Position numbers and translations under genes: made by a program. The notes below the pieces were generated by a model. The model saw only the letters and a program-made list of their open reading frames with translations. It had not been told where the DNA came from and did not search any database. A stretch of DNA of 64,000 nucleotides from Lantana camara. Taxonomy: Eukaryota > Streptophyta > Magnoliopsida > Lamiales > Verbenaceae. Positions 832 to 55,634 of the stretch are shown one piece after another. How positions within the stretch are numbered: the first letter of the stretch is position 1; every line of letters begins with the position of its first letter. Location: contig CM074858.1 in assembly GCA_037501455.1 (NCBI GenBank), positions 40,545,001 through 40,609,000 on the forward strand, written 5' to 3'.

Positions 832-847
832 GAATCCGTCCTCGGAT

Positions 848-4247: not shown

Positions 4248-4259
4248 GCTCTGATACCA
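4248..4259 (-). other. Primer-binding site, unit A1
   Basis: The minus strand reads TGGTATCAGAGC, complementary to the 3' end of initiator tRNA-Met, 8 nt inside the LTR edge at 4268. It fixes the element's orientation and the LTR 3' end. Confidence 0.9.
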
Positions 4260-6362: not shown

Positions 6363-8036
6363 CAGCAGCAGTCTCTGTTTTGACAGAAATGGCGCAGAAA
6401 CAGAGCAACGTTCCAGCATGAAATTCGAGCAAAACATGCAGCAATACAAGGCATGAATTACAGCAAGAAATCAGCCACAACCCACACCACAAAGCCACGA
6501 AAACGGACAGCAAAAGAAAGGAGAAACGCAGCACTTTGACAACAACTTTTCCAGGTCAAAAACAGGGCATACTCGACGGAAAACAGAGCCAAACCCAATC
6601 AATCTTCAACCAACATGTTCAGGTATGTTAAGGTCACAAATATGCAGCAAAAGACTCTAGATGAACACACAAATCAGTTCCAAAAGTGATCAATCAAGGC
6701 ATGGAAGCATACGTGACCTTCATGTGGAATTTTCTGAAAATTCCATAAATGATATCTCATATATATCTCAACAAACACGAAAGCAAAGATCATAATTGAT
6801 ATGAGGATGTTAAAACAATTAATCTCAGGCTTGGAATCAATCAAAATCATTGAGAATCAAAGGAGATCAAGAATTTATACAAAAACTCCACTTTTCGGTA
6901 AAATGGCCCAGAATGGATGAAACCATGCTCAAACTTGTGAATGGAAGGATGAAAATGATCAGAATTAATCATACAATACAACCTTAAGCTTACCTTGATG
7001 ATTGGTTGAAGTTTGGAGGAGATTTGAGCTCCAAAATCTCCAAGGGATGAAGGGTTACGGGACTGGAGAGAAAAACAGTAGCTTTGGCTGATGTTTGGGG
7101 TTTGTGTGATGATAATCTCGGTCAAGGCTTGAAATATCTAGATAGGTGGTTGAGTTAGGGTTTACAGGAATCAAACCATGGTTAATTTGGTTGTGGTTTG
7201 GCCTAGTTAGGGCTGAATTAGTGCAACAAGGTCAAGTTGGTCTCCGTTTCGTTTTTCGGTTGGATTTCGGAGTTTCAAATGAATTGGGAAAATTATAAGG
7301 CTAAGTTTACTAAACTCGAATTTTCGTTACGAGTTCAGCGGAGTTGACGGAACTCGAATCCGAGTTCCCGAGCTCAAGATATTAAATTCGGAACCAAGGG
7401 TACGCTAAGTGCTCGTTAGCTCCAGTTTTGGTTCCTCAATTAAAATTTAATTCGTTAACACAACAAATAAATTCAAAAACATAATTTGAGCATAAAATCA
7501 TGTTCATAACACATATATGTACAACATATTACAAAATCGTGGCATTTCAATATCATTTCATAAGAGAACGAAGCACAAAATAAACGAACAAACTCAATCA
7601 TACAATTCATGCATAAATTATAATATTCCCATGCATAAATATATTAATTTGCATGCATAAATAAAATCTTCATGCATAATTTATATATTGTACGTAAATA
7701 TATATATATATATATGAATAATCAATTAATTAATTAAAACATGATTAATTAATGTAACATATAATTAGCATAATCATTAAATTGATAATAAAGTAATTAA
7801 ACATATATATATATATATATATATATAATACGAAATATATATATATAAAATTTATAATATTAAAATAAAATAATATAATATAACGTAATAAAATAATAAC
7901 AACTATAATAAAATTAAATATAAAACAAGTAAAAACGATTAATGCGCGCAATTAGGTAAACACAGACGTCGTACCTTTACGTCGAAAAAGTCGGGCCGTT
8001 ACAATCTCTCCCCCTTAAAAGAATCCGTCCTCGGAT

Positions 8037-10254: not shown

Positions 10255-11241
10255 TTATCCTTCCATCAGAACTGAACACTCCCAAACCAACTGATCTGTC
10301 TGAAGACTACCACCCAGTGGCGAACTCACCAAACAACAAGAAGAAGAAAAGCAAATAACAGACAAGCACGGAATAGCAACTACGTCACAAGAAATAAGAG
10401 AATGCGTGACACCCGAATCAAAGAGTGCATGAATGCTCATGTTATGTATGCATAGGGTACCTTCTATCACAGCTGTGGGATCAATCTCGGCATCTTGCTC
10501 TTCACCTTCGTTAGCGTAAGCACGAGCCGGGATCATTGGCCTTTGAACTCGTCTTTGATATCCGGGGTCTTTATAGGGGCAAGTATCCGCCATATGGTCG
10601 CCTTTTCCACATATAAAGCACAATTTCAACCTCCTCCGACAGTTATAGTAATTATGAGTTGGTCCTCCACAATGTGTACAGGGAGCTTGAGCCAATCTCG
10701 CCACGCTCGGACCTTGTCGATCTTTTGTAGGTGTAGGCAGAGCTTTTGGGACCGGTGGAGTTGGTCCTCCCATTCTTGGCTTCTTAAACGGAACCTTAGG
10801 AGGGGGACTAGCTTGCATCATCGGCCTCTTTCCCGAATTCGATCCGGAACCTCTTCCCATTGGAGTTCTAAAAACCGGATCCTTCTTTTTGATTTCCTCC
10901 CCTTGCGTAGTAGACTGTCTGACTCCAGATATCCTCTCTACTCGAATCAACCAACCCTCCGAGATCGCATCATCGCTATCACCAGAAGATCGAGGGGGGT
11001 TATAACTCAGAAACACCCCATGAGGTTCTCTATTGTTATTATGATTCGGTGGAGGGGCTTGTTGTTCTGCCTGTTGTGGTGGGGGAGCTTGAGCCCTCCT
11101 ATGCTCGACATAGTTGAAAACCGCTTCCATAAAATTCCCCATATCCATCGGTGGTGCTTGTGGTTGGGGTGGAGGCGTAGGAGATCGATCATGATGACGA
11201 CGGCGTTCGGGAGATCTCTCACGGTGTCTGCGTGGAGGCAT
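10255..11241 (-). pseudogene. gag: Gag-protease with capsid deletion, unit A2
   Basis: The predicted protein matches the unit 1 copy (MPPRRHRERSP start, two CCHC knuckles, retropepsin DSG triad, stop after SVLMEG), with the same capsid deletion. The only difference noticed nearby is a base in the leader just upstream of the ATG (position 11255). Confidence 0.8.
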
Positions 11242-11436
11242 CCTGTTCAAGAAATATTGAAAATGCATGCTATTTTTAGTCCATGCATGCAAATGCAATT
11301 AATTCGATCAAAATTCAAGATTTAGGGCACACAAGCACGTAAACAATGCATATGCAACACATTGACAAGCTGTTCCTAAAGCCGAACGACCTAACTGACT
11401 CAGCACGACACTAGAGCCCGGGTTTTGCAACCCTAA

Positions 11437-11448
11437 GCTCTGATACCA
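11437..11448 (-). other. Primer-binding site, unit A2
   Basis: TGGTATCAGAGC on the minus strand, 8 nt from the LTR edge at 11457. Confidence 0.9.
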
Positions 11449-12215
11449 CTTAAGGATGTAGCACCCGAGCGTAAGGTACCACATCCCCCGCACCGAGACC
11501 CGACCCGTATATGAAATGGAAGTCCATACACGGGCCAAATCCGCGGCGAACGGGGACACAACACACACGCTATGCTAGGTGGGACTAACCCCTAAACCAA
11601 TCAACTCAAGAAACATAAGGAATCAGAGTTAAAGAAAGTTTTGCGGAAGCCATAACGATAAAGCATATACAGTGAGCCACCAAGCTCCGAAAATAGATAT
11701 ACAAGAGCATTCAAATATGCAATGGCACTCATGGCCTACAAAATCGTAACGCTCCAATCTATAACAGGATCAAATACAAAAGTAGCAACCAGAGTATGAA
11801 TATGAGACTGAAAAGAAGTACTAAACACAAATGCAAGACCTAGACGACTTGTATTCCCGCCTAGCACTCCTATACCTGCACAAAACAGCTGAAAACAACC
11901 GGGTTCAGTCTAAAAGAGACTGGTGGGTATAAAAACGGGGCATAAGATATATAGTATCGCATAAATTAAACACATACATGCAAGCCCTAATCCCGTGTGA
12001 AGTTTGATAAGAATTTATCAAGTGGTTAAAACAATGAAGACATCAACGGGATTACGACGTTCATTTTCCTTCATAATTGTTCATAAGGGTTTAAGCTCGG
12101 CGAGTGAGCGTGCACAATCTCCAACCTTCTCCTCGTGTAATCATATCATAAATTATTGGTGGTCATACATATCTTTCGTGCACATACATAAATGATCATA
12201 ATCATACATATACAC

Positions 12216-12435
12216 CTTCTTCCTCCGGGTGGTGGACAAGTTAGCTAGACCTGACCACCGGTTCATACATAGGCCAATGGGGGTACATGAATCCCCCAAG
12301 GGCACTCAGCTCCCATTCCTCGCTAAACCTCCTAGCGAGGGCCGGTATCACCGTAGTTTGGTTGGAACTAGTATATGGGATCCCCGTCAGCCCTTGCTTC
12401 CTCGGTTAGCCACATATACTAAGTCCCGGGGCCCG
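12216..12435 (-). other. Conserved structured domain, LTR A-3
   Basis: Copy of the 5027-5246 domain; I saw no difference in any of the four stems, consistent with recent duplication. Confidence 0.7.
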
Positions 12436-14988
12436 TATAAGCATATATATAAATGTGTCTCGCCAAACATAAGGTAGGGTTTCACAATTAAAAAGGGGTC
12501 ATACATTTGAAATCATTTACCCAAAATGACTCGATTGATATAAATATATTATTTTGGCTTAAAACTTTACACATAAGGGATTTATAGGGTTGTTTTAACT
12601 AATAGAAGAAAAATCCACCTTTACCAAAGCAAAATAAAGGCACAAGCGTCTCAATGCTCGCCCTCGTCTCCGACAAAACCCGAATCTGTGCAAAAGAAAA
12701 GGTATGAGACACAATGACCACATATGACGCTCGGCAATGAAGTGAATATGACATGAATGCATAAATGATCATGTTATATTATAAAAATGTTCATGTGCAC
12801 GATTAAAGAATTTAAATCATATAATCAAATCATTCGTTCATATCTTTTATTCAATTTCATAATTTCATAAATTCATAATTTCATAAATTTACAATATTCC
12901 TAACATTCATAAATTTATAAATTCATAATGCATAACAATTAATCTAAAATTCATTTAATAAGCACAACACATATTATTCAAATTCACATTTAGGAATAAA
13001 ACAAATAAAACGTTCAATCAATAGTCGGTAGAATAAATACGCGAAATGGAAATCAATTAATTTCAATAATTAAATTAAATCAAATAATATTTAAAATATA
13101 TAATAAATATACATATAATATAATATATACATATAATCATATAATATAATAACATATATACACATTACATATATATATATATACTCACGTACACACACAC
13201 CCAAGCATACATGCATATATACTCTATATTATATACATATTATATACTATATATAATTTACATGCATGCAACACATGCATGCACACATATTACACAATCA
13301 ATACACCCACAACACAGACATATATATATATATACAGCCATACAACCACAAAACAGTAGCAGCAACAATATTCACGCGAGGAAGAAGAAGAAAATGCAGG
13401 CTAAAGAATTCAGAAAAACGGGGTGACACCCCCGTGTCACCCTCCCCGCCTAGACCGAGACACCCCCGTGTCTCGGTACAGCAGCTCCAATCCACACAGC
13501 ACCCCCGTTCCTCGCTGGAACGGGCAGAAACGGCACGCCCGTGTCGTGCAGCAGCAGCAGTCTCTGTTTTGACAGAAATGGCGCAGAAACAGAGCAACGT
13601 TCCAGCATGAAATTCGAGCAAAACATGCAGCAATACAAGGCATGAATTACAGCAAGAAATCAGCCACAACCCACACCACAAAGCCACGAAAACGGACAGC
13701 AAAAGAAAGGAGAAACGCAGCACTTTGACAGCAACTTTTCCAGGTCAAAAACAGGGCATACTCGACGGAAAACAGAGCCAAACCCAATCAATCTTCAACC
13801 AACATGTTCAGGTATGTTAAGGTCACAAATATGCAGCAAAAGACTCTAGATGAACACACAAATCAGTTCCAAAAGTGATCAATCAAGGCATGGAAGCATA
13901 CGTGACCTTCATGTGGAATTTTCTGAAAATTTCATAAATGATATCTCATATATATCTCAACAAACACGAAAGCAAAGATCATAATTGATATGAGGATGTT
14001 AAAACAATTAATCTCAGGCTTGGAATCAATCAAAATCATTGAGAATCAAAGGAGATCAAGAATTTATACAAAAACTCCACTTTTCGGTAAAATGGCCCAG
14101 AATGGATGAAACCATGCTCAAACTTGTGAATGGAAGGATGAAAATGATCAGAATTAATCATACAATACAACCTTAAGCTTACCTTGATGATTGGTTGAAG
14201 TTTGGAGGAGATTTGAGCTCCAAAATCTCCAAGGGATGAAGGGTTACGGGACTGGAGAGAAAAACAGTAGCTTTGGCTGATGTTTGGGGTTTGTGTGATG
14301 ATAATCTCGGTCAAGGCTTGAAATATCTAGATAGGTGGTTGAGTTAGGGTTTAAAGGAATCAAACCATGGTTAATTTGGTTGTGGTTTGGCCAAGTTAGG
14401 GCTGAATTAGTGCAACAAGGTCAAGTTGGTCTCCGTTTCGTTTTTCGGTTGGATTTCGGAGTTTCAAATGAATTGGGAAAATTATAAGGCTAAGTTTACT
14501 AAACTCGAATTTTCGTTACGAGTTCAGCGGAGTTGACGGAACTCGAATCCGAGTTCCCGAGCTCAAGATATTAAATTCGGAACCAAGGGTACGCTAAGTG
14601 CTCGTTAGCTCCCGTTTTGGTTCCTCAATTAAAATTTAATTCGTTAACACAACAAATAAATTCAAAAACATAATTTGAGCATAAAATCATGTTCATAACA
14701 CATATATGTACAACATATTACAAAATCGTGGCATTTCAATATCATTTCATAAGAGAACGAAGCACAAAATAAACGAACAAACTCAATCATACAATTCATG
14801 CATAAATTATAATATTCCCATGCATAAATATATTAGTTTGCATGCATAAATAAAATCTTCATGCATAATTTATATATTGTACGTAAAAATATATATATAT
14901 ATATGAATAATCAATTAATTAATTAAAACATGATTAATTAATGTAACATATAATTAGCATAATCATTAAATTGATAATAAAGTAATTA

Positions 14989-15343: not shown

Positions 15344-16251
15344 TGTAACACCCCGAATTTTATTTATTAATATCTTATGTTTTAAAATAATTTTATAAAT
15401 TATATTTTAAAATACTTTCAAGAAAATTTTATGAATTTATATCAAATTGAGAATTTCCTTCATGACTGGAAAATATTCATTTCGTAAAATATTTACCGGG
15501 TATGAGTTAACTACCAAATTGTCCCTAGATAGATATTTCTTTAAACTTGGGGACTAAATTGCATGGGTTTCAAGGACCTAATTGACCATATTTCAAAACC
15601 CTATATCCTTAATTGCATGACTTGAACTCTTAGAGGATTAATTGGCAAAATTGGACATCTCACACATTTCAAAATTGGATGGATCGTTATATGCATCTCC
15701 AAGCTTCTTCCTTGCTCTCACATCATCCAAAAATCTCCCAACCACAATTGCTTCTTGCTCTCGGTTCATACAAGAAAGAAAAGGGAAGAGAATTCATCAT
15801 TTACCTCAAGAATTCTCAAGAAAGGTTTCAAGAAATTGAGTTGATCATCATCATCACCCATCTTCTTCATTCTTTTCATTTCAAGGTTGGCTTGCATGAA
15901 GTATTGATTCTTGATCATGTTTGAATTGACTAGGGTTTGAGTTTGATATGATAGATGGATTATTGGTAGATGGAAGCATGATTATGTGACCTTATATTGG
16001 ATTATGGCATGATTTATAGCTTGAATCTTTGAATATTGAGCTTGAATGATCAAGTTTGATCATGAACATGAATCTTGAATTCTTGATGATTTTTCCATGA
16101 TTGATATGCTTAAGTGTTATTTTATCAACTATTGAACATATGTGTATCATATTTCCAGAAAATCATAGCTTTGTTGATTGGGAATGGAATTTGTGGCTTG
16201 CTTTGTTGTTTCCCGTAGCCATGCTCTGTTTTGTTCTGTTTCTTTCCAGTT

Positions 16252-16490
16252 GCAGAACTGGGAACGACCGTTCCCAGCCTCAAGGCATTATGGGAACGGG
16301 CGTTCCCACCCTTTCAAAGAAACTAGGCGGCCGAGCATGGGAACGGCCGTTCCCATTTTGGCCTTGGTGCCGGAAGGGCCGTTCCCAGCTAAAGGCGCCC
16401 TTTGTATTTAAAATCGTTGCCACGTCTTTGGGGTTACGGGAACGACTGTTCCCATTTACAAAGGGAAGCTGGAACGGCCGTTCCCACCTG
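16252..16490 (+). repeat. GC-rich palindrome cluster, GGGAACG type, LTR K
   Basis: At least five copies of GGGAACGnCCGTTCCC-like palindromes, for example GGGAACGGCCGTTCCC and GGGAACGACCGTTCCC. The position in the LTR is the same as that of the GTGACAC palindromes of A, F and G, but the arms are entirely different. Confidence 0.85.
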
Positions 16491-17019
16491 ACATGCAGAA
16501 CAAAATATTCTGCATAAAATTACAATTTTAGCCCCTCGATCCGACGACTTCTTTGACCCCGATTTGCTATTATATGATCTAATGTGTACTGAAACAACAT
16601 GTTTTCATGCCACATTGTATATTGCATGTCATCTCGATGCATTTCCGCCGTTCGTCATATTTGGTCCATTTTAGAGTCATGTCTCACGTGTACACGTCGT
16701 GTTTGCACAGATCCTTGTCTCGTGACGTGGAGCAGGGGCCGTAGGCCGTGTCTTAACTTGCATTTGTCGGTAAAGGTGAGGTTTAGTTATTAATTATCTT
16801 GAACCCTATAACCCTTATATGGATTTCGGCCAAATTACACATGCGTATATCTTTATAATCGTTTTCCAACAAAAAGGGATTTAATAACTACTCGTGTATC
16901 ATGTTACAAATCGTGTTGCCTGAAACTAATCATGCTCATGACAAGCAAATCGTGTATCGTGTTTGTAATCAAGCCATGAATCGTGTTATCGTGTACCGTG
17001 TATCATGTGTCGTGTTTAT

Positions 17020-17230
17020 GGGCCCGAGGGTGAGTGTTTGGGCCAACCGGGAAAGCATAGGGCTGACGGGTAACTCACACACCTCTCTCAAACCGTGGGG
17101 ATGCCCCCTGAATCCACCAGGAGGATTGGTGGAGGAAGGAGTCCCGTACGTGGGAGTCATGTTCCCGACGTGCAACGTGATATCGTGGGTGGTTCGGGTC
17201 TTGCAAACCCACCACCATTGGAGAAAGGAG
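17020..17230 (+). other. Conserved structured domain, LTR K
   Basis: GGGCCCGAGG start, core GCATAGGGCTGACGGG, hairpin TCCACCA / TGGTGGA with GGAGGA loop, hairpin GGG-agtcatgtt-CCC, and hairpin GGTGG..GGG-tcttgcaaa-CCC.CCACC. The outer stem (P1) is weak here. Confidence 0.65.
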
Positions 17231-17897
17231 AATTTCGTGTTATTGATCGTGTGCACTTTAATGACTTGCATGATAACTTAATTAAATGAAAGTGCAACCC
17301 TTGTTCACTGTCGAGGTTGGTTGGAGATCGTACACGCTCTTCGCCAGGGCCACTGATTGTTATAATAACCATGATTATCGTGTTAAACCTGATAGTTGTA
17401 ATCTCGGGCGAGTATTGATATTCTTGCACTTTTGTTGATATTATTATTTGGTTACCAAAACCTTACCTGAGATTATAACTTGCATGCTACTTGTGTTTAT
17501 ATATATATTGCCCCTCAGTCGGTCTTCACAGACTGACGCCTCCACCTTTCAGGTTTTGTTCGTGGCGTGCTAGGCGGGAGTCGGGTCGTGTCTTTCTATC
17601 CAGCTGAGTCTAGCATAGCTTTTCTTCTCATGTATTAATAGTTCAGAGTATCATGTTGATAGTTCTAAGGGCATATATGTGAACGTTACTTGGAAGATGA
17701 TAATGTATTGATATGATGATATAATATTCTTATGCTTCCGCTTTATATTGTTACATGTAAGTTATCCCGCCTAGACGGTCGTGTATTGCATTGTCACCCG
17801 TTCGCTATAGGTTGGTTCATGTACGGTTCGCCCATTTCGTATGTGGATTGACCTATAGTGCGGGGGTGTGGCACCTTCACGTGTCGGGGGTGCTACA

Positions 17898-21183: not shown

Positions 21184-21400
21184 GGGGGCCCTTGGACTTG
21201 GTGCACATGGCGATCCGGAGAAGCAAGGGCTGACGGGGATCCCGTGTGCTAGTCCTAAACAAATTACAGATTTTGAAACTCGCTAGGAGGTTAGCGAGGA
21301 AAGGGGGCTGAGCGCCTTTGGGGAACTCATGAAACCCCACTGGTCAATGATTGAGGTGGCCGGGCCTTGCTAACCCGTCCACCGCCCGGAGGAAAAAGGT
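21184..21400 (+). other. Conserved structured domain, LTR B 5'
   Basis: Core GCAAGGGCTGACGGGG, P1 GCACA / TGTGC, P2 CTCGCTA / TAGCGAG with the AGGAG-type loop, P3 GGGG-aactcatgaaa-CCCC, P4 GGTGGcCGGG-ccttgctaa-CCCGtCCACC. Confidence 0.7.
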
Positions 21401-23334: not shown

Positions 23335-24547
23335 TGTGACGCCCCGATTTCTCCAAATCGTTCAGGTATGAATTATGTGATAATTACGTGTGCGTTTAAT
23401 TTATTTTAATTACGTTATTTAATTTCTTTATCTTATATTATATTAATTAGAGGATATTTAATTATTTGAAATATTTGAATTTATATGAATTTTCTTTGAA
23501 CTATTTGCGCTTGAACGAAGTATTTGCTTGCCGTTTATACGTGAAATGATTTCGGAATTTTGTGTGCATTTAAGATGTTGGACTTATATGTGTTATGAAT
23601 ATGGTTATATGCTCGTTTCATGTTTTTGAGTTTGTTTGATTGAGATTTGAATTTATTTTGATTCGTAATCCAAAACGGGGGCGAACGAGCAATTAGCGCA
23701 CCATTGGTTCCTTATTTCATAACTTGAGCTAGGAAACTCGGATTCGAGTTTCGTCAACTTCGTTGAACTCGTATCGAAAATTTGTGTTTGATGAGCTTAG
23801 CCTTATATTTTTCCAAAGCCATTTGAATTCCCGGAATTCAACCAAAACACTTAACAGACGCCTAAACTGACCTTGCTACACCAAAATGACCATAACTTAT
23901 TCATTTGTTGACCAAATTAACCATGGTTAGACTCTATGGAACCCTAACTCAACCCTTTCTTCAGCCATTAACCCCTCAAACCTAGATAACCCTTCTCACT
24001 TGGGGTAAATTGGCCAAACACCCTCTGCATTCCAGAAATCCCATCACCCAAGCCCTTCTGGGAAATTCAAGCTCAAATCTCCTCCCAAACCCCCATTAAT
24101 CCACAAGGTAAGCTTGGATATGTTATGTACATTCAATTTGAGTCATTTTCATTCATTCATCCCTAAATTTGAGCATGGTTTCATGAGTTTTGGCCAAGAT
24201 GCATATATAGTTAGGTTTTGAGCATTTTAGTTGATCTCTTCCAACCCTTGAACTTTTTGAATGATTCCAAGCATGAAAATGATTGTTTTGATCTCCTCTT
24301 TACATTTATGGTGATGTATTAGTTGTTAGTTGAGGTATTTATGAGCCACCATTAATGAGCTATTGAAGTTTTGGTATGATTTGGTCACCACACACTAACT
24401 CTCACATTTCAAGGTCTTGGGAGCATGATTGGGAGTTGTTTTTAAGTGGTTTCATTGCATCTTGGTTGTCTTTTGTTGATTGAATGTGTTGAGATGTTGT
24501 ATCTTGGTTATGCCCTGTTTCTGCGCGTTTTTTTCTCTGATGCGTGC

Positions 24548-24755
24548 ATGCCACGGTCGTATCACCCCTTTCTTCTTTTGGGTGACATGGGGGGTGCAGT
24601 TTTGCTTGGTTCCGCTGTACCGTGACACGGGGGTTTCACGGTTTGCCTTGTAGTGGTGACACGGGCGTGTCACCCTCTGATTTCTTGTCCTGACTGTACC
24701 GTGACACGGGGGTGTCACGGATTGCTTTGTGTTGGTGACACGGGCTTGTCACCTT
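24548..24755 (+). repeat. GC-rich palindrome cluster, GTGACAC type, LTR F 5'
   Basis: Four to five units alternate between CGTGACACGGGGGTGTCACG and GGTGACACGGGCGTGTCACC, spaced about 40-50 bases apart. The 3' LTR equivalent is 37545-37755 and is better preserved. Confidence 0.85.
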
Positions 24756-25216
24756 CTGTTTTCATGCATTTTGTGGGTTCATGCATGTTGTGTATGTATG
24801 CATGTGTATATATATATACATATATTTTGATTATAGGATTTAAATTCCTCATTAGTGCACATGGACATGTTCATTACATAACATATTCTTTTCCATACTC
24901 ATAGCATGATCATTTCATTGCCGAGCATCTTAGTTGGTCATTTTGAGTCTCACGTCACCTTTCTTGCACAGATTTTGATCCCGTTGGAGACGAGGCCGGT
25001 CCTTGAGGCTTTCATCTCTTCCTTTTCCGGTTCGAGGTGGATTTCACTACTAATAGTTATCTTGTCCCAATATAACCCTTATGTGACCGTTTTAAGCCAA
25101 AAGTTATACTTATACTTATCAAGTCTTTTAAAGAGTCTTATGATTTTCGATTGTTAAGACTTCTTTATGAAAACCTACCTTATGTTTTGGCGAGAGTGCA
25201 TGTATGTTATGATCAC

Positions 25217-25430
25217 GGGCCCCGGAGCTTAGTGTATCATGGTAAACCGGGGAGGCAAGGGCCGACGGTGAACCCGTGCACTAGTTCCAACCATTTTACG
25301 TCGAAACGGATCTCATCAGGAGTTTTGACGAGAAAACGCTAGTTGGGCTTTTGAGGATTCATGTACCTCACTAGCCATTATGTATGAGGTGGTCGAGTCT
25401 TGCAAACTCGTCCACCACCGGAGGAAGAAG
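25217..25430 (+). other. Conserved structured domain, LTR F 5'
   Basis: P1 TAGTGTA / TGCACTA, core GCAAGGGCCGACGG, P2 CTCATCA / TGACGAG (one mismatch), P3 TGAGG-attcatgta-CCTCA, P4 GGTGGtCGAG-tcttgcaaa-CTCGtCCACC. Confidence 0.72.
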
Positions 25431-26181
25431 GTGTATATGAATGATTATGATCATTATGTATGTGCACATATGTTATGTATGATAACTTATGAATTTTTGA
25501 ATATGTTTACACGAGGAGAAGGTTGGAGATGATGTACGCCCATTCGCCGGGCCTTAAACCCTATGTTAATTATGAATGAATATGATAGTCGTAATCCCAT
25601 TGATGTTTTATTTGCTTTGCCCGCTTGGGAAATTTATTATCAAACTTCTATGGGATTAGGGCTTGCATGTATATGTTTCAATTCTGCGATATTTATACTT
25701 ATGCCCCACTTTTATAGCCACCAGTCTCTTTTAGACTGAACCCGATTGTTTTCAGTTGTTTCGTGCAGGTTTGGAGGTGCTAGGCGGGAATTCGAGTCGT
25801 CTAGGTCTTGCATTTGTGTCTACCATTTCCTTTACACTCAATTGCACTCATATTTTGTATCTTGGATTTGTATGGAACGAATTATGTTATTTGAGCCGTG
25901 AGGGCATTGCTACCACTTATTGTATAGGTTGTTCTATTTTGGAGCTTGGATGCTCAATGTGAATATTTATGTTTATTGCTTCTGCTATTGCTCTTGTTTC
26001 TCGATTTTAAACTCCTGTTGGCTATTGTTTGGTTAAGGGTTAGCTCCCGCCTAGCTTAGCGTATGTGTTGTGTCCTCGTTCGTCGTGATTTGACACGTGT
26101 AGGGATTTTCCATTTCCTATGCGGGTCGGGTCCCGGTGCGGGGCATGTGGCGCCTCGCGCTCGGGCGTTACATCCTTTGAG

Positions 26182-29922: not shown

Positions 29923-31596
29923 ATCCGAGGACGGATTCTTTTAAGGGGGAGAGATTGTAACGCCCCGACTTTTCGGACGTAAAGGTACGACGTATGTGTT
30001 TACCAAATTGCGCGAATTAATTATTTTTACGTGTTTTATATTTAATTTTATTATAATTGTTATTATTTTATTATATTATATTATATTATTTTATTTTAAT
30101 ATTATTAATTTTATATATATATATTTCGTAATATATATATATATATTTTTAATTATTTTATTATTAATTTAATGATTATGCTAATTATATGTTATGTTAA
30201 TTAATCATGTTTTAATTAATTAATTATTCAAATATATATTTATACGTTGACTAAATTATTTATGCATGAAAATCATAATTTTTGCATGGGAATTATTATT
30301 GCATGAATTTTATTTCATTTTTGCATGGGATTTGTGTATTTATGCATGAATTGCATGGATTGAGCATATTATTAATTTTGAGCTTCGTTCTTGTATGAAA
30401 TGATATTGAAATGCCATGAATTTGTAATATGTCGTATATATATGTGTTATGAACATGATTTTATGCTCGGGTTATGTTTTCGTATTTAATTGGTAGGTTA
30501 ACGAATTTAATTTGTTTGGAGGAACCAAATCGGGGGCTAACGAGCACTTAGCGTACCCTTGGTTCCGAATTTAATATCTTGAACTCGGGAACTCGGATTC
30601 GAGTTTGTCAATTCCGCTGAACTCGTAACGAAAATTCGATTTTAGTAAACTTAGCCTTATAATTTTCCTAAGTCATTTGAAACTCCGAAATCCAACCGAA
30701 AAACGAAACGGAGACCAACTTGACCTTGTTGTACAAAATCAGCCATATCTCATCCAAACCATAACCAAATTAACCATGGTTTGATTCTTTGAAACCCTAA
30801 CTCAACCATCTATCATGACATATCAAGCCTTGACCGAGATTATCCTCACACAATCCCCAAAACTCAGCCAAAGCTACTGTTCTTCATTCCAGTCCCGTAA
30901 CCCTTCCATCCTTGGAGATTTTGGAGCTCAAATCTCATCCAAACTTCAACCAATCATCAAGGTAAGTTAAGGGTTGTATTATATGTTTAATTCTGATCAT
31001 TTCCACCCTTTCATTCATGAATTTGAGCATGGTTTCTTCATTTCTGGGCGTTTTTCCGAAAATAAGAGATTTTGGGTAAATTCTTGATCTTCTTCGATTC
31101 TCAATGATTTTGATTGATTCCAAGCTTGAGATTGATTGTTTTGACATCCTCATATCATTTATGGTCACTGATTTCGTGGTTGTTGAGATAATTATGATAT
31201 ATCATTTATGACATTTTTGAGAAAATCCACATGAATGTCACGTACGCTTCCATGTCTTGATTGATCACTTTTGGAACTGATTTACTTGTTGAATACGTGA
31301 TATTTTGCTGCTTATTTGTTGGCCTTAACTGAGTAAATGGATGGAGAAGGATTGAATGCAAGCATGCCCTATTTTTCCCGCAGCTTTGCCCTGTTTTCTT
31401 TCACGCTGAATTGCTGTCAATTTGCTGAGATTCCTTCATGCTTTTGCTGTCAACTTTCTTGGTCTTTTAGCTTGTGTTGTGTTGAGTTTTGTTGCCATTT
31501 ATGCCTTGCTTTGTTGCCTTCTTTCTTGCTGGAAATGGCTGCCTTTTTCCTGCTCTGTTTTCTACGTGTTTAGCTGTCTGTTACGGGGGAACTGCT

Positions 31597-31730
31597 GTTG
31601 TGCGACACGGGGGTGTCGATTGTTGCGTTTTCGGCGAGACACGGGGGTGCTGTGTGGGCTGGTCTTGCTGTACCGAGACACGGGGGTGTCTCGGTCCAGG
31701 CTTAGGAGGTGACACGGGGGTGTCACCCCG
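31597..31730 (+). repeat. GC-rich palindrome cluster, GTGACAC/GAGACAC type, LTR G
   Basis: Contains CGACACGGGGGTGTCG, CCGAGACACGGGGGTGTCTCGG and GGTGACACGGGGGTGTCACC. The order mirrors array A. Confidence 0.85.
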
Positions 31731-32668
31731 TTTTTCTGGTTTTCTCTGTTGCTTCTTCATTGTCTGTTGATGCTGATTATTTTGGGCATGGCTGTATGTT
31801 TTGTGCAGAGTGTGTGTTGTGTGCATGCATGGCTTTGTATATGATTTTGCATGCATGTGTAGTACATATGTAATATATATATATATAGGTATTTAATATA
31901 TAATACATTTTGCATGCATGGGTGTAATTGTGTTTGTGTATATACGTGCATGCATGTGTGAGTATATATATATATATTTATATATTATATATATACTATA
32001 TGTTATTATATTATATATTATATATGTTTATTATATATTTATTATATATTTTGAATATTATTTGATTTAATTTAATTATTGAAATTAATTGAATTCTATT
32101 TCGCGTATTTATTCTACCGACTATTGATTAAACGTTTTATTTATTTTATTTCTAAATGTGAATATGAATATTATATGTTATGTTTATTGAATGAATGTTA
32201 GATTAATTGATATGCATTATGAATTATGAACGTTATGAACTTATGAAATTGAATGAAATATATGAACGAATGAATGATTATATGATTTAAATCTCTTAAT
32301 AGTGCACATGAACATTTTATTGATATAATATGATCATTTATGCATTCATGTCATATACACTTCATTGCCGAGCGTCATATGTGGTCATTGAGTCTCATAC
32401 CTTTTCTTTTGCACAGATTCGGGTTTGGTTGGAGACGAGGGCGAGCCTTGAGACGCTTGTACCTTTCTTTTGCTTTGGTAAAGGTGGGTTTTTCTTCTAT
32501 TAGCTAAAACAACCTTATATATTCCTTATGTGCAAAGTTTTAAGCCAAAACCGTATATTTATATATATCGAGTCATTTTGGGTAAATAATTTCAAACGTA
32601 TGACCCCCTTTTTATTTATGGAACCCTACCTTATATTTAGCGAGACACATTTATATTTATGCCTGTTC

Positions 32669-32890
32669 GGGCCCCGGGACTTAGTATATGTGGCTAACCG
32701 AGGAAGCAAGGGCTGACGGGGATCCCATATACTAGTTCCAACCAAACTACGGTGATACCGGCCCTCGCTAGGAGTTTTAGCGAGGAATGGGAGCTGAGTG
32801 CCCTTGGGGGATTCATGTACGCCCATTGGCCCATGTATGAACCGGTGGCCGGGTCTTGCAAGCCCGTCCACCACCCGGAGGAAGAAGGTG
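32669..32890 (+). other. Conserved structured domain, LTR G (reference copy)
   Basis: GGGCCCCGGG start; P1 TTAGTATATG / CATATACTAG enclosing GCAAGGGCTGACGGGG; P2 CCTCGCTA / TAGCGAGG with loop ggagttt; P3 GGG-attcatgtacg-CCC (one base less regular than in A); P4 GGTGGcCGGG-tcttgcaag-CCCGtCCACC; end ACCCGGAGGAAGAAGG. Frames on the opposite strand (32626-32874) are shadows of these repeats. Confidence 0.75.
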
Positions 32891-33664
32891 TATATGAATG
32901 ATTATGATCATGTATTTATGCGCACCAAAGAATTTATGTATGATAATGAATTATTGAATAATTAATTATGATTACACGAGGAGTAGGTTGGAGATTGTGC
33001 ACGCCCACTCCCCGGGCCATAACCCTTATGAACAATTATGAACAATTATGAATGAATATGAACGTCGTAATCCCGTTGATGTTTTCTTTTGTTTTAACCA
33101 CTTGGTAAATTCTTATCAAACTTCACTCGGGATTAGGGCTTGGATGTATGTGTTTAATTTATGCGATATTATGTATCTTATGCCCCATTTTTATACCCAC
33201 CAGTCTCTTTTAGATTGAACCCGGTTGTTTTCAGTTGTTTTGTGCAGGTATAGGAGTGCTAGGCGGGAATACAAGTCGTCTAGGTCTTGCATTTATGTTT
33301 AGCACTTCCTTTTGTCTCATATTCATACTCTTATTGGTATTTTGTATATGATCATAGTTTATGCTTGGAGCGTTACGATTTTTGTAGGCCTTGAGCGCCG
33401 TTGAATATTTGAATGCTCTTGTATATCTATTTTTGGAGCTTGGTGGCTCATTGTATATGCTATGTTATTCTTGCTTCCGCGAATTTTATTTTAACTCTGA
33501 TTTTATGATTCTTGATTTGTTTGGTTTAAGGGTTAGTCCCGCCTAGCATAGCATGTGTGTTGTGTCCCCGTTCACTGTGGATTTGGCACGTGTATGGACT
33601 TCCATTTCATATACGGGTCGGGTCCCGGTGCGGGGGATGTGGTACCTCACGCTCGGGTGCTACA

Positions 33665-36334: not shown

Positions 36335-37544
36335 TATGACGCCCCGATTTCTCCAAATCGTTCAGGTATGAATTATGTGATAATTACGTGCGCGTTTAAT
36401 TTATTTTAATTATGTTATTTAATTTCTTTATCTTATATTATATTAATTAGAGGATATTTAATTATTTGAAATATTTGAATTTATATGAATTTTCTTTGAA
36501 CTATTTGCGCTTGAACGAAGTATTTGCTTGCCGTTTATACGTGAAATGATTTCGGAATTTCGTGTTAATTTAAGATGTTAGACTTATATGTGTTATGAAT
36601 ATGGTTATATGCTCGTTTTATGTTTTCGCGTTTGTTTGATTGAGATTTGAATTTATTTTGATTCGGAATCTAAAACGGGGGTGAACGAGCAATTAGCACA
36701 CCATTGGTTCCTTATTTGATAACTTGGGCTAGGAAACTCGGATTCGAGTTTTGTCAACTTCGTTGAACTCGTATCGAAAATTTGAGTTTGATGAGCTTAG
36801 CCTTATATTTTTCCAAAGCCATTTGAATTCCCGGAATTCAACCGAAACACTTAACGGATGCCTAAACTGACCTTGCTACACCAAAATGACCATAACTTAT
36901 TCATTTGTTGACCAAATTAACCATGGTTAGACTCTATGGAACCCTAACTCAACCCTTTCTTCAGCCATTAACCCCTCAAACCTAGATAACCCTTCTCACT
37001 TGGGGTAAATTGGCCAAGCACCCTCTGCATTCCAGAAATACCGTCACCCAAGCCCTTCTTGGAAATTCAAGCTCAAATCTCCTCCCAAACCCCCATTAAT
37101 CCACAAGGTAAGCTTGGATATCTTATGTACATTCAATTTGAGTCATTTTCATTCATTCATCCCTAAATTTGAGCATGGTTTCATGAGTTTTGGCCAAGAT
37201 ACATATATATTTAGGTTTTGAGCATTTTAGTTGATCTCTTCCAACCCTTGAACTTTTTGAATGATTCCAAGCATGAAAATGATTGTTTTGATCTCCTCTT
37301 TACATTTATGGTGATGTATTAGTTGTTAGTTTAGGTATTTATGAGCCACCATTAATGAGCAATTGAAGTTTTGGTATGATTTGGTCACCACACACTACCT
37401 CTCACATTTCAAGGTCTTGGGAGCATGATTGGGAGTTGTTTTTAAGTGGTTTCATTGCATCTTGGTTGTCTTTTGTTGATTGAATGTGTTGAGATGTTGT
37501 ATCTTGGTTATGCCCTGTTTCTGCGCGTTTTTTTCTCTGTTGCG

Positions 37545-37755
37545 TGCGTGCCACGGGCGTGTCACCCCTTTCTTCTTTTGGGTGACACGGGGGTGCAGTT
37601 TTGCTTGGTTCCGCTGTACCGTGACACGGGGGTGTCACGGTTTGCCTTGTCGTGGTGACACGGGCGTGTCACCCTCTGATTTCTTGTCCTGACTGTACCG
37701 TGACACGGGGGTGTCACGGATTGCTTTGTGTTGGTGACACGGGCGTGTCACCTTC
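37545..37755 (+). repeat. GC-rich palindrome cluster, GTGACAC type, LTR F 3'
   Basis: CCGTGACACGGGGGTGTCACGG occurs twice and GGTGACACGGGCGTGTCACC twice, with perfect arms where the 5' LTR has several mismatches. Confidence 0.85.
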
Positions 37756-38216
37756 GGTTTTCATGCATTTTGTGGGTTCATGCATGTTGTGTATGTATGC
37801 ATGTGTATATATATATACATATATTTTGATTATAGGATTTAAATTCCTCATTAGTGCACATGGACATGTTCATTACATAACATATTCTTTTCCATACTCA
37901 TAGCATGATCATTTCATTGCCGAGCGTCTTAGTTGGTCATTTTGAGTCTCACGTCACCTTTCTTGCACAGATTTTGATCCCGTTGGAGACGAGGCCGCTC
38001 CTTGAGGCTTTCGTGTCTTCCTTTTCCGGTTCGAGGTGGGTTTCTCTACTAATAGTTATCTTGTCCCAATATCACCCTTATGTGACCGTTTTAAGCCAAA
38101 AGTTATACTTATACTTATCGAGTCTTTTAAAGAGTCTTATGATTTTCGATTGTTAAGCCTTCTTTATGAAAAAATACCTTATGTTTTGGCGAGAGTGCAT
38201 GTATGTTATGATCATG

Positions 38217-38430
38217 GGCCTCGGAGCTTAGTGTATTGTGGTAAACCGGGGAGGCAAGGGCCGACGGTGAACCCGTGCACAAGTTCCAACCATTTTACGT
38301 CGAAATGGATCTCGTCAGGAGTTTTGATGAGAAAACGCTAGTCGGGCTTTTGAGGATTCATGTACCTCACTAGCCATTATGTATGAGGTGGTCGAGTCTT
38401 GCAAACTCGTCCACCACCGGAGGAAGAAGG
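38217..38430 (+). other. Conserved structured domain, LTR F 3'
   Basis: As in the 5' LTR, but P2 reads CTCGTCA / TGATGAG, fully paired with one G-U. The mismatch of the 5' copy is therefore a late change. Confidence 0.7.
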
Positions 38431-41123
38431 TGTATATGAATGATTATGATCATTATGTATGTGCACATATGTTATGTATGATAACTTATGAATTTTTGAA
38501 TATGTTTACACGAGGAGAAGGTTGGAGATGATGCACGCCCATTCGCCGGGCCTTAAACCCTATGTTAATTATGAATGAATATGATAGTCGTAATCCCATT
38601 GATGTTTTATTTGCTTTGCCCGCTTGGGAAATTTATTATCAAACTTCTATGGGATTAGGGCTTGCATGTATATGTTTCAATTCTGCGATATTTATACTTA
38701 TGCCCCGCTTTTATAGCCACCAGTCTCTTTTAGACTGAACCCGGTTGTTTTCAGTTGTTTCGTGCAGGTTTGGAGGTGCTAGGCGGGAATTCGAGTCGTC
38801 TAGGTCTTGCATTTGTGTCTAGCATCCTTTACACTCAATTGCACTCATATTTTGTATCTTGGATTTGTATGGAGCGAATTATGTTATTTGAGCCGTGAGG
38901 GCATTGCTACCACTTATTGTGTAGGTTGTTCTATTTTGGAGCTTGGATGCTCAATGTGAATATTTATGTTTATTGCTTCCGCTATTGCTCTTGTTTCTCA
39001 ATTTTAAATTCCTGTTGGCTGTTGTTTCTCAATTTTAAATTCCTGTGTGTTGTGTCCTCGTTCGCCGTGATTTGACACGTGTAGGGATTTTCCATTTCCT
39101 ATGCGGGTCGGGTCCCGGTGCGGGTGATGTGGCGCCTCGCGCTCGGGCGTTACAAGACGGATATAAAGGAGTAAAGAAGATTGATTAATATAGTGGGTTC
39201 AAGTTATGGAAAGCCAAGATACTTAAGATTCTATCTTCAGTTAAATTGAGTTAATTTTCGGATCCAAGATGAATTGCTCTATAGTGAGGTTAAATTGGGA
39301 GATATGGAGCAACAAATGGAAACTATGAAGAAAGGCAAGTCATATAACTAATTCTAGTTCAAAAAGAGTAAATTGAGAGGACTTCAACCGAGGTAACGCC
39401 TAAATGAAGTCGAGACAACAATGGGGGATTAGTCCCTTGAGAGAAGTTGGGATAATAACTTCATAAGTGGAAAAGAATTTGAATTCAAGAATTACAATCT
39501 CAGATTATAAGGTTATACAAGAGATACAAGGAAACTTTGATCGAGGAGATAATTGTGGTAAAGATTTGGGCAATACTTAGAGATCGATACTTGGAAAAGA
39601 ATCGAGTTCAAGAAATTTCATTCCCGGGTAATGGAAATGTATGGGTTGAGGATAGAGAATTTTGAAGAATTGGAAGACCGTGGGTAACGAGAGATGACCA
39701 ACAAACTTGACACAAGCTTGTAATTCAATAAATAAGGAACAAGTGCCGATTTAAAGCCTATCACTACAACGGTGACAGGTTCAGTGAATTCATCGCACGT
39801 ACATCATACCTCGCATTAAATTAATTAAATTCCCTTAATTATATGTGTGCGTGCATCTCTACTTGTTATGATTCTTTAATGTGTTGCCTATCTTGAGTGG
39901 TACGTGCATTGGCATCTTAATCCGACATGCATTGTTTAGTGTTTACTTGATAGGAAATTTTTCTCCGCTTCCCCATCAAGTGATATCTCAACCGAGCTAT
40001 TGTCGAATCAAGGTATGTGGCTTTGGTAGAACCTCTTTGAGAAAGAAGCTAAGTTGAAGTGGTCGTAAGTATTCGATCTATGAAGTAATAGAACGATTTC
40101 AAGGAATTAGGATACAAGCTTTTAAGGGGGAAAGCATAACCGGGAGATGATTTAAATGTTTGGTTGGGCCGAACGGATCATTTGTAGAAGCGAGAATGGA
40201 AATTCAAGAGTCTACAAGTAACAGAAATTCTACAGAAGTGATAAGGGAGAAATTAGGAGAGTTTGGTACCTGATAAACATCAAGGTCGAGTTGGGTAAAT
40301 ACTTCATGAGTGATATTGGAAGATACATGTACTCCGAAAGATAAAGATGTGGAATCAAGAAGTGATTGGGAATTGAATCGATAAGATAAGATAGGGGATG
40401 ATCAGTGACGACTTCGGTTATGGAATCAATGTCGTTGGTATCCTATTACCGGATACGCATAAACCTAATCTTCTAAGGTTGAAAGAATTCTGTATGGTGT
40501 ATCGCGTCTCATGCCTTGGAGATGATGGAATCGTGAAAGGATTTTTTTTAGAGTTGGTAAGGAAGTTATTGGGTAAGAGAACCCAATCTAATCATCATAT
40601 TCTATAAGGGACAAAGTGAGCGTCAATTCAACCATGCAATGGAAGTGGAATAACTAGGAGAGATCCCAAGCATCCGAGAAAGGTTGAGTGTAATTCCTAG
40701 AGAAGAATGAACTGACTGGGCTAAGACCAAGTGTACCCTCAAGACTTGGAGCCTTAGACTGTGGTGTTGGTAGAGATAAGAGACTTAATCGTGGATGGAA
40801 ATCGTATGATCATTGAAGTATCAAACATATTGGGGATTTCAAGGCAATTGACACTTTGGTTAGAAGTACATCCCAACCAAAGAATGAAGTGTTCAACCGA
40901 ATCGCCACCATGAATGAATTCTAACCAATGGTGAACGGTACATCTAAACATGCATATCAAGTGCATCATGTATTTTAGTAATGCAGTACATGGATTCTTG
41001 TTAATTGTTAATTACCTTTGTATGAACGACAATTAATGTGCTTGCTATTTTCCTACTTGTTTCTTACATGGTTGGCGTGAGTGTTCCTTTAATTGTTCTT
41101 TTGGGTTGCGGTTCTGTTGGTCG

Positions 41124-41462: not shown

Positions 41463-44400
41463 TGTAATGCCCCGTTTTCTCGACAAGTCAGGTATGCGCT
41501 CCACGCCTGTGAGTTTTGAGATTTACGGCTATCCAATTCTCTTTTCATTATTTTATTTGTGCAATTTAATTTATTTACTTGTAATCTTTTGTGACTTATA
41601 TGATTTAAATTACTAATCTTCGTGAATTTCAATTACGTGAGTGTGTATTCATTTTCCCGAACGTGATTTATGTGTTTAATTATTTCTAATTGTGAGAATT
41701 ACATATTTAATTGTCCTTAATTGCAAGCTTCTGTAATTCTTGAACTTAATTGATAAATTGATAAGGAATAAATTGCCACATTCATATATTTGATACTTGA
41801 TTGCATTCATTTTAATTCCTTGAGGACTTGATTGCAATTTCCCTATCCTCTCTCCCTCATTCTCATGATATAACCTATACATACACAAATTTCTCTTTAT
41901 CTTCATTTCATCTCCTAAGAACAAACCCAAGACAACTCCATCTCTTTCTTTCTTCCATTTTGGTCCAAGCAAGCAAGGAGAAGCCAAGGGTTTCTTCCAT
42001 TTCTCTCCAAGAAATCAAGCTCCATACCATCATCTCTCTTTTCCACTTCATCTCCTTTCTTCTCCAAGGTAAGATCATGCATATATTTGATGAATTCATT
42101 GAGCTTTGCTAGGGTTTTATGATTCTTTGAATTCCATGACTTAATTGAAACATGTATGTTGATCTTAAGTTGGTTTTATATATTTATAACTTGAATTCAT
42201 GAAGCATAAAGCATGATTGATCACTTGACTTCATAAGGGTTCTTGATATAATTTTGATGAATTTATACATGTTTCCATGGATTAAATGTTGCTTAATTGA
42301 TATATATGATCATATACATGTTATATGTTAGTTTGGGGTTGAATTCTTGCATTGGTTTGGTGTGAAAGTGGATTGGGAGCCAAATTTCGAGCTTGCCCTG
42401 TTTTTCCCGAGTCTTTTTGCTGCTGCTGGAATTCAGGTAGTGCCCACGACCGTTTTTGTGACCGTTTTGGTCGCGCCCGCGACCAACAACCCGAGAGCTT
42501 TCTGTTTTTCCGTCGCTGCCCCGACTGCTTTTCAGTATAATTTTTCCGCGGCCGCGACGCCTTCGAAAGAGCTCCGATTGACATGATTTTTAAACCGTTA
42601 GAAATATATTGAAGTCTAGAATAACCTACAATTGGAATTATCTCAATATCTTTTGTCAATTGTGAGATATAATCAAGTATTTTTGGTATCGCCACTTCAC
42701 CGACCATTTGCATTCATCCAATTTCGGGCTTACGCCATTTTCACCTCGCTTTGAACCAGAAAATGACCCATATATCATCGGAATGGTATTTTTGTCTAGT
42801 TTCATGCCCAACAAGAAAAACTCAATTCCATCTTCTAGAACTCAAGATATGTTCAATTCTTTTTAGCTTGTGCATTCCAGAAACTGTCAGCTCTCACCTA
42901 AACTTGCTCAAATCCGTATTCTTACTTTTGTTCCACTCTCTCGGACTCCGTATGTGACTTGAATGAATTGTATGCTTAATTAATTGATAAAATGTGATAT
43001 ATTTTGTTATGATTATGGATTTTATATTGTGAATTCAATGTGTTAACGTGAAAGATAATGTGAACATTTACATGATACAATATGACCTTCTTTGTAACTA
43101 TTACATTCCCTATGTGTCTAATGAATTCCTTGAACCTCTAAATGGTTCATATGAAAGAAATGAAACGCATGATTATGAAACCACCATGTCTTGAACATTT
43201 TGAATGAATTACTTGATTATATGACCTCATAACATGATTAATGCTTTTTATGCATATCATATCATGTGTATAACATGCCGTGTGTCATATATGGTTCACT
43301 TAGAGTTCTGAGTCTCACTAGTCTACTACCTTGTCCTTTGTACAGTTTCTCCTGGGCGGAGACTTGTCGGGTTCTTAAGCTACCTTCTTGTCTTATTTTC
43401 GTCTTGGTATCATGCGGTAAGGTGTAACAGGTCGGTTTCTCTACTATTAGTTAAGAAATGACCCGATATACCCTAATATGCTTGATTTCGGCCAAAAATA
43501 TATCTATATTTGTATCGAGTCTTTCATAAAGTCAATGATTTCGAACGTTAAACCCTTCTTAATGATTAACCTACTAATGTTTTGGCGAGAATTGATTGAT
43601 CACGTTGAATGGGGGCCCTGGGACTTGGTGCATGTGGCGAACCGGGGAAGCAAAGGCTGACGGCGATCCTGTGTGCTAGTCCAAACCAAATTACAGATTC
43701 CGAAACTCGCTAGGAGGTTAGCGAGGAAAGGGGGCTGAGCGCCTTTGGGGAGCGCGAAGGAAAAAGGTGTAAGTCTAATGAATGATTACATGAATGATTG
43801 ATTGAATGAACGAATGATTATGACTGAATGAATGATTGTATGATCACTAATTAGCGAATAAATGAATAAATGCACACAGGAGGTGGAGGTTGGAGATTTT
43901 ACCCTCTCACCGGGCTCACGTAATGACCGTATGATTGTAATGATTAAATTAAATTGATTGCTGTAATTCCGAGCGTTGCTTTATTTCATTTTCACCCACT
44001 TGGGAAATATTTCAAAACCTCGCACGGGATTATAGCTTGCATGCGTGGGTGTTTAAATTCTTGTAATATTATAATATTAAACCCTGTTTTATACCCACCA
44101 GTCTCCTATAGACTGAACCCAACCTTGTTTTCAGTTCTTTTGCAGGTTTTAGAATGCTAGGCGGGATTGTGGGTCTGTCGAGTCCTGTGGTTAAGTCAGA
44201 GTCACACCACACGCATATTGTAATTTGAATCAGTTTATATGTAGAAATGTATGAATGATTATGATTGTATTATATTGATTCGGGATAGACTTCTAGGGAT
44301 AGATTGAACCCATGTAGTATGATTTTGATTTATGATTTATATTTGAATTTTCGGAACTAGGAATCTATGCTAGTGGAACCCGTCATTATTGCTTGTATTT

Positions 44401-50770: not shown

Positions 50771-50992
50771 CACCTTTTTCCTCCGAGTGGTGGAAGGGCT
50801 TGCAAGACCCGACCACCGGTCCATACATAGGCCAATGGGGGTACATGAATCCCCCAAGGGCATTCAGCTCCCATTCCTCGCTAATCTCCTAACGAGGTCC
50901 GGTATTACCGTAGTTTGATTAGAACTAGTACATGGGATCACCGTCGGCCCTTGCCTCCCCGGATAGCCACATGCACTTAGTCCCTGGGCCCG
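50771..50992 (-). other. Conserved structured domain, LTR D
   Basis: Minus-strand: core GCAAGGGCCGACGG, P2 CCTCGTTA / TAGCGAGG (one G-U), P3 TGGGGG-attcatgta-CCCCCA, P4 GGTGGtCGGG-tcttgcaag-CCCttCCACC. Confidence 0.7.
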
Positions 50993-55413: not shown

Positions 55414-55634
55414 GGGCCCCGAAACTTAGTGTATGTGGCTATCCCAGGAGGCAAGGGCCGACGGTGATCTCATATGCTAGTTCCAACAAAATGTACGGTA
55501 AAACCGACCTCGTTAAGGAGTTTTGATGAGGAAAGGCTAACCGGGCTTTTGAGGATTCATGTACCTCACTAGCCACATTGATATGTTTAGGTGGTCCGGC
55601 CTTGCAAACCCATCCTCCACCCGGAGGAAGAAGT
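55414..55634 (+). other. Conserved structured domain, LTR E 5'
   Basis: P1 TAGTGTATG / CATATGCTA with two G-U pairs, core GCAAGGGCCGACGG. P2 CTCGTTA / TGATGAG is decayed; P4 is decayed too. Confidence 0.6.

Follow-up and report, generated by a model that had tools for sequence, protein, structure and literature searches.

To our knowledge, little has been settled about the selection, export and packaging of genomic RNA by plant LTR retrotransposons. Constitutive transport elements feature in the available part of PMC4829213. The domain reported here resembles RRE, CTE, the IAP RTE, the musD MTE and the MLV PTE in being a structured, multi-hairpin and putatively cis-acting RNA of an LTR element, and like them it would act on unspliced genomic RNA. 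Those elements belong to animal viruses and retrotransposons; the plant domain sits in the LTR itself, and its export activity is putative. Compared with psi/DIS, its Gag binding and dimerization are likewise putative, and a loop position for its GGGCCC palindrome would be conjectural. Another comparison is with BARE, which is a Ty1/copia element. In barley, BARE makes one class of RNA for translation, another for packaging and, via splicing, a further one for Gag (available text of PMC3735527). Like psi/DIS and BARE, the plant LTR domain would mark unspliced RNA.

Plant retrozymes bear hammerhead ribozymes in their LTRs (PMC4918200, in part). As far as that text goes, a structured RNA motif inside plant LTRs is what they share with the present domain; in contrast, no ribozyme matches here, and the host elements are long, some with open gag-pol frames. 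A screen of gene regions in 130 plant genomes gave 16 structured-RNA candidates; significant covariation was reported in four of these motifs, at a mean of 0.625 pairs per candidate, and five are linked to alternative splicing (accessible text of PMC12218528). Those RNAs (DEAD, 45ABC and others) covary, as does ours, and some of them adjoin splice sites; they were sought in clusters of gene regions, and the accessible text contains none of the strings 'transpos', 'LTR' or 'Gypsy'. Conserved LTR structure is also the subject of Benachenhou et al. (PMC3601003), where, according to the accessible text, length variation of plant Metaviridae LTRs prevented their modelling; the present domain lies in the LTR class left out there. 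No account of this domain was found in the accessible portion of the open-access literature.

The earlier note knew no named RNA family that fits, and comparison with Rfam agrees. At the curated gathering scores of release 15 there are no matches in the window or in 12 loci with further copies, and when 32400-33664 was searched with relaxed settings, the two matches obtained lay far under their gathering scores and outside the block. Hammerhead/retrozyme and other known ribozymes were rejected, there being no match to an Rfam covariance model. A tRNA or tRNA-like origin was rejected as well (ARAGORN, bacterial settings, no genes in the window).

Copies of the block and their host elements

The window, that is, the whole 64-kb stretch of DNA analysed here, is part of a 114.7-Mb contig in a 1.27-Gb assembly and is rich in nested Ty3/gypsy elements. 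Thirteen blocks in LTR sense had been listed in the earlier note. All 13 are present at the coordinates below, and every copy with a mapped LTR has the LTR sense; except where indicated, each has a profile and a covariance-model match.

5027-5246, - strand, block copy
12216-12435, - strand, block copy, same sequence as 5027-5246
17020-17230, + strand, block copy, family R, LTR 15344-17897 (identical twin at L025 used in training)
21184-21400, + strand, block copy, family C
25217-25430, + strand, block copy, family A, LTR 23337-26172
32669-32890, + strand, block copy, family B, LTR 29958-33664
38217-38430, + strand, block copy, family A, LTR 36337-39154
43611-43769, + strand, block copy that has lost P4
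46611-46840, + strand, block copy, deeply diverged (profile match; model R1 18.2 bits, R3 15.1)
50771-50992, - strand, block copy
55414-55634, + strand, block copy, family D
58172-58377, + strand, block copy, in training set A4
63474-63692, + strand, block copy, family E

With at most two mismatches, the 14-mer core GCAAGGGCYGACGG matched 11 of the 13 blocks (shuffles: mean 0.19, maximum 2). The copies at 17020 and 46611 were missed by this pattern and recovered with a block profile, which gave exactly 13 matches in the window, having been built from the same 13. The copies are all there, but as independent observations they come to only about nine. Those at 5027 and 12216, identical in block sequence, both lie in a 7.2-kb tandem unit; 25217 and 38217 belong to the two LTRs of one element; the stretches holding 21184 and 43611 are 93-96% alike; and 55414 and 63474 show 92.6% identity across 1305 bases. 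Positions 1-14674 contain an LTR element in tandem, with a period of about 7,185-7,189 bases, perhaps the product of unequal LTR-LTR recombination.

The domain is carried in the LTRs of many chromovirus-like Ty3/gypsy families. Pfam matches in a 1386-aa frame give gag, protease, RT, RNase H and integrase in Ty3 order, and three other frames hold parts of this order; the protease is an aspartic protease by its Pfam match. A candidate chromodomain (PF00385) matched in one of the four frames, from family A, at E 5e-5 and 23.6 bits, under the cut-off of 25.1. The best 120 of 7902 relatives of the host-element RT are plant proteins (from Solanum and Tanacetum, for example), with a few from the alga Chara. 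Going by the long LTRs, the lineage may be Tekay/Del. A T37-type element (L018:4984-9088 and L019:5347-9452) has 4.1-kb LTRs that are 99.0% alike; its 1386-aa open gag-pol frame stops inside integrase and gave no chromodomain match.

Five elements have paired LTRs, with LTR-LTR identities of 97.1-99.0%; by this comparison many block copies are recent. In all five, 878-1258 nt separate the block start from the LTR 3' end; one of them, family S, has an LTR whose start is probably incomplete. Close LTR families match each other widely with blastn, and profiles detect the block in families with few or no mutual blastn matches. Families A and Q share one 77-base stretch, which lies within the block. 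Neither R nor S gave any match to A at E<=0.01, yet the profile detects the block in both. The matches between family B and P258 fall in the block, at the end of the LTR and in repeats, and A and F46611 match over 408 bases near the LTR start.

There are 22,985 exact matches to the 14-mer core (11,416 + 11,569) in the 1.27-Gb genome, against 1 + 1 for the reversed control. A 24-mer core of T37, a deeply diverged family, has 1,462 genome matches and its control none. The same profile found more copies, several of them much diverged, in the 200 kb upstream of the window and in five further loci; clustering the 76 profile matches of this enlarged set at 80% identity, fragments counted, gave 14 groups. 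In the T37 family four hairpins keep their order, their arms are new and the P3 loop has changed, as judged by eye and from the MFE fold of one copy. One T37-type LTR seems to hold two blocks about 500 nt apart (L009:6980-7196 and L009:7489-7705, minus strand). At L010:3383-3447 and L010:9832-9896 the P1 part alone matches, with 11.8 and 15.8 bits; this is maybe another family or a truncated domain. Viral contigs scanned for the core gave no match, and none was confirmed in the scan for the polyprotein and reverse transcriptase of the elements.

Architecture of the domain and of its surroundings

The block comprises about 210 bases that are predicted to fold as RNA into a common multi-hairpin shape across families. 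The order of its parts is P1 with the core hairpin, mini-hairpin, P2, P3, P4 and purine-rich tail. In the LTR of family B the parts and the surrounding elements lie as follows; a slash marks a predicted splice junction.

29958-33664, + strand, LTR carrying the block (LTR mapping)
30962-32416, + strand, predicted leader intron 1, CAAG/GTAAGT ... TGCACAG
32484-33247, + strand, predicted leader intron 2, AAG/GTGGGT ... TTTTGTGCAG/GT, containing the block
32669-32675, + strand, GGGCCCC leader, with GGGCC(C) in most copies including deep families
32676-32690, + strand, P1 5' arm, pairing with 32726-32739
32705-32714, + strand, core hairpin (A/G)GC-AAGG-GC(U/C), inside P1 and overlapping the 14-mer core
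32726-32739, + strand, P1 3' arm, partner of 32676-32690
32750-32760, + strand, mini-hairpin CGGU-GAU-ACCG (sequence and MFE fold)
32763-32785, + strand, P2 hairpin with AGGAG loop, AGGAGUUUU at 32770-32778 (covariation)
32800-32830, + strand, P3 hairpin made of an inner and an outer helix, with loop AUUCAUGUA at 32811-32819 (covariation)
32844-32872, + strand, P4 hairpin, loop UCUUGCAAG at 32854-32862 (covariation)
32873-32888, + strand, conserved purine-rich tail ACCCGGAGGAAGAAGG (alignment of copies)
33068-33146, + strand, P5, a distal hairpin of GUAAUCCCG with CGGGAUUA, then a CUUGCAUG-type motif, here CUUGGAUG (shuffle test)
33201-33217, + strand, small hairpin CAGUC...GA(C/U)UG before a pyrimidine tract (by eye)
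33258-33268 and 33537-33547, + strand, long-range inverted repeat of 11 nt, GCTAGGCGGGA and TCCCGCCTAGC (sequence)

Stem arms that differ among families and still pair, around fixed loops, had been described in the earlier note and are seen in the aligned copies. The outer arms of P3 vary as GCC with GGC, GGGC with GCCC and GGUAU with AUACU, while its conserved loop is UUCAUGUA. The P4 arms GGTGGcCGGG, GATGGTGGG and GATGGTGAAGG each have a matching partner, and the P4 loop is UUGCAA or, in some families, UAGCUA. In other families the mini-hairpin is GGG-AUGA-CCC and its register shifts. Stems P1, P3 and P4 exist, but they are longer and more irregular than those first quoted; likewise, the block is there, but conserved pieces reach well past the 160-230 nt once given as its extent. 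The P2 pairing of CAACC with GGTTG quoted for the 46611 copy consumes the GG of the loop and differs in register from the other families.

The GGGCCC at 32669-32674 is a palindromic 6-mer found at the start of most copies, deep families included; it has no evident pairing partner and is a possible dimer contact. No open frame runs through the block on either strand in 28 of 36 copies, and a protein-coding block was rejected on this ground. A pairing of CCGGG with CCCGG between the P1 internal loop and the tail, given by RNAalifold, is speculative: it is broken in some families and too invariant for covariation to judge. A kink-turn in the purine-rich internal loop was rejected by eye.

Upstream of the block, a C-rich stretch ends in AAG/GTAAG in families A, B and C, with weaker GT sites in Q and R. 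Next come an acceptor-like CAG, a short stretch resembling an exon, and AG/GTGAGG or GTGGGT. This second donor-like site was found in 17 of 25 copies (not in the other eight), and in 16 of the 17 it lies 164-243 nt upstream of the block start. On the other side, 3' of the small hairpin (CAGUC with GACUG), come the pyrimidine tract, mostly CAG/GT, and then GCTAGGCGGGA. The acceptor-side motif is present in 20 of 25 copies and absent from five; in all 20 it lies 529-716 nt after the block start. From sequence only, we infer that the leader is spliced and that the block lies within its second intron. A group II intron was rejected: there is no Rfam match, and the acceptor-like end is YAG (20/25 copies, by eye), not AY.

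P5 was scored in 23 of the 25 copies, two being too short. In 10 of the 23, at most one of 200 mononucleotide shuffles was as stable; the copy at 32669 had 7/200. An anchored search of the deepest families (46611, 177650, 108789, T37, 147325 and 164022) gave one T37 copy that came near (2/200) and no other. The inverted repeat GCTAGGCGGGA...TCCCGCCTAGC, whose halves are about 200-290 nt apart, starts just past the acceptor-like site in most LTRs of L006-L025 and may form a long-range stem. Upstream of the block, the LTR has repeats of GC-rich palindromes that are specific to families (31600-31730, 37549-37760 and L007 about 8285-8500): families A and B have the GTGACACGGGGGTGTCAC type, Q and R the GGGAACGGCCGTTCCC type. 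Their look is that of hairpins or of binding sites in tandem.

Covariation and held-out models

Covariation was tested with an R-scape-like program, not R-scape itself, which applies a G-test with average-product correction. In the null model, which uses FastTree and Fitch, substitutions are re-dealt along the branches and column rates are kept. Of the 76 profile matches, 48 were kept, leaving out eight fragments or broken copies as well as near-copies of at least 96% identity; 36 of the 48 are of the main type and form alignment A3, and 20 of these 36 form A4. An alignment fitted to the covariance model (CM) holds 44 of 56 matches and a sequence-only alignment 45 of 53, fragments and copies more than 97% alike being left out.

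Covariation is present under this careful test, and it is strong where the structure is allowed to guide the alignment. On the CM-fitted alignment of 44 non-redundant copies, 17 of 43 pairs reach E<0.05, with one or more significant pairs in each of eight helices, and the slid controls give 0 of 42-43 each. Structural pairs make up 12 of the top 14 among 20,910 column pairs. In this structure-fitted alignment 88.9% of cells are paired and 39 of 43 pairs have two-sided changes, a level that none of 500 shuffles attained. The loop-anchored alignment of 36 copies, which leans to structure because the length of the P2 loop and the register of P4 were fitted, has seven of 53 pairs at E<0.05 (slid controls 0, 0, 2, 3, 1 and 1). 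When the structure is re-applied to the 45 rows of the sequence-only alignment, three of 43 pairs pass, in the core, P2 and P4, with none in P3 at E<0.05 and none in the slid controls. Among the ten outer pairs of P1, four have E<0.05 on the CM-fitted alignment and none on the other two. The core hairpin has E<0.05 on the CM-fitted and sequence-only alignments and E 0.08 on the loop-anchored one.

All-pairs tests were more sparing. Four structural pairs pass on the CM-fitted alignment, together with one non-structural pair, and no structural pair passes on the sequence-only alignment; the procedures differ from those of PMC12218528, so that a comparison with its accessible figures is loose. 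When 23 diverse copies were aligned blind with MAFFT (A2), the core hairpin was the top column pair (E<0.01) and nothing else passed. In the blind A3 of 36 main-type copies no structural pair has E<0.05, and one non-structural pair stands at 0.045. Covariation over phylogenetic expectation, on which the earlier note had staked its claim, was thus found at three, seven or 17 pairs, depending on the alignment.

Three models were built from A4 (20 copies, one family group): R1 with the structure, R2 without any and R3 with a sham structure slid by 3. They differ in effective sequence number, and their E-values are rough. Over 37 sources at E<=1 they gave 56, 38 and 46 matches, respectively; three of the 56 for R1 are fragments or doubtful (L010 twice and 22946 in the window). 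R1 scored above R3 in 11 of 11 held-out window copies and above R2 in all ten of these that R2 detects, the one at 46611 giving R2 no match at E<=1. For the copy at 32669 the scores are 103.6 (R1), 68.4 (R2) and 74.0 bits (R3). R1 alone detects T37-type copies (L019:8193, L018:7830, L012, L014:1583, L011 and L009:7489), which are one related family. At the diverged locus L022:4022 the sham model is higher (R1 15.9 against R3 19.5 bits), and at L051 R1 and R2 score about equally.

Over 1080 cells at 30 pairs there are 85 G-U against 21 A-C, where shuffles expect 138 against 93; helices whose register was not fitted (P1, P3 and core) have 59 against 15. This bias fits a sense-strand RNA, and C-to-T decay of old copies can also add G-U. 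Folding energies discriminate weakly: the mean z is -1.28 for the block (9/20 below -2), -1.13 for its antisense and -0.24 and +0.27 for the flanks.

The RNA structure of the domain is well supported, and by its covariation the domain is a conserved structured RNA. The helices recur from family to family on the sense strand, their arms compensating and their loops fixed, and in the five paired elements they stand about equally far from the 3' end of the LTR.

Possible roles

These results suggest an unnamed RNA signal that the elements may need for copying themselves. We give about an even chance to the reading that it is a cis-acting element which, from within a predicted leader intron, marks the unspliced genomic RNA for export, packaging or dimerization. 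The first part of the LTR would supply a promoter and a C-rich leader exon, and two leader introns would come next, with the domain inside the second. Because R-U5 is copied from the 5' end of the RNA, a spliced RNA would be unable to rebuild the LTR by reverse transcription. The unspliced RNA alone would therefore be a useful genome, and a domain confined to it would for that reason be a natural mark. Bound by Gag and/or a host export factor, and possibly dimerizing, the domain would bring about nuclear export of the unspliced RNA and its entry into the particle, and the spliced RNA would serve translation. We infer the transcription start, the introns and the role from sequence features. If this reading holds, the domain would work like psi, RRE and CTE/RTE/MTE; we claim membership in none of these. 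The wider proposal of an ancient RNA family, present in the LTRs of a whole lineage of plant chromoviruses and serving from the leader intron as a mark of genome identity, is tentative and somewhat less likely than not.

Alternatively, the domain, tail, P5 and small hairpin might govern the leader splice sites as a splicing or intron-retention switch, with no role in packaging or export. The block sits between conserved splice-like sites, and its tail GGAGGAAGAAGG presumably resembles a purine-rich splicing enhancer. A link to alternative splicing is also given, in the accessible text, for five of the 16 RNAs of the plant screen (PMC12218528). We consider such a switch unlikely. The block is not at a predicted splice site: the donor-like site is 164-243 nt away in 16 of 17 copies, and the acceptor-side motif follows only after 529-716 nt. 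An IRES or shunt taking ribosomes past a 2-kb leader to gag would suit the long leader that results if transcription starts, as presumed, early in the LTR, and structured leaders serve in this way in plant pararetroviruses (available part of PMC5902531). Spliced gag mRNA would lack the block, which starts 878-1258 nt before the LTR end, and this function is quite unlikely. Within R, LTR sequence would be present at both RNA ends, and the block could act in the 3' LTR on termination, polyadenylation or RNA stability; the splice-like sites and the C-rich stretch suggest a leader position instead, and a 3'-end element is quite unlikely as well.

Plant retrozymes, with their LTR-borne hammerheads (PMC4918200, in part), invite the idea that the LTR hosts an RNA that acts in trans or on its own, for instance a new ribozyme or a small RNA released by processing. 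The fold is compact and the loops are strict, but no Rfam match of any kind and no tRNA in the window accompany them, and we regard this as very improbable. Finally, RNA might not be involved at all: the block could work at the level of DNA, or the pattern could come from relatedness and from fitting the alignment. Many copies are recent, the registers of P4 and P2 were partly fitted in the loop-anchored alignment, the antisense folds nearly as well, and all-pairs tests on unfitted alignments give the core hairpin alone or no structural pair. The phylogeny-aware null, the slid controls, and the held-out and sham models favour structure, as does the excess of G-U over A-C, and this last explanation is hardly credible.

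If the wider proposal of an ancient family is true, the domain would play in plants the part that psi and the export elements play in animals, this genome would encode it tens of thousands of times, and through it the host and Gag would distinguish unspliced genomic RNA from spliced mRNA. A covarying domain common to deeply diverged families with recent copies offers a concrete cis element. Well-supported covarying RNAs seem rare in plants, to judge from the accessible part of PMC12218528. As a structural marker, the domain would allow old LTRs that escape sequence search to be detected and classified, and genes that pick up LTR sequence may acquire a folded RNA too.
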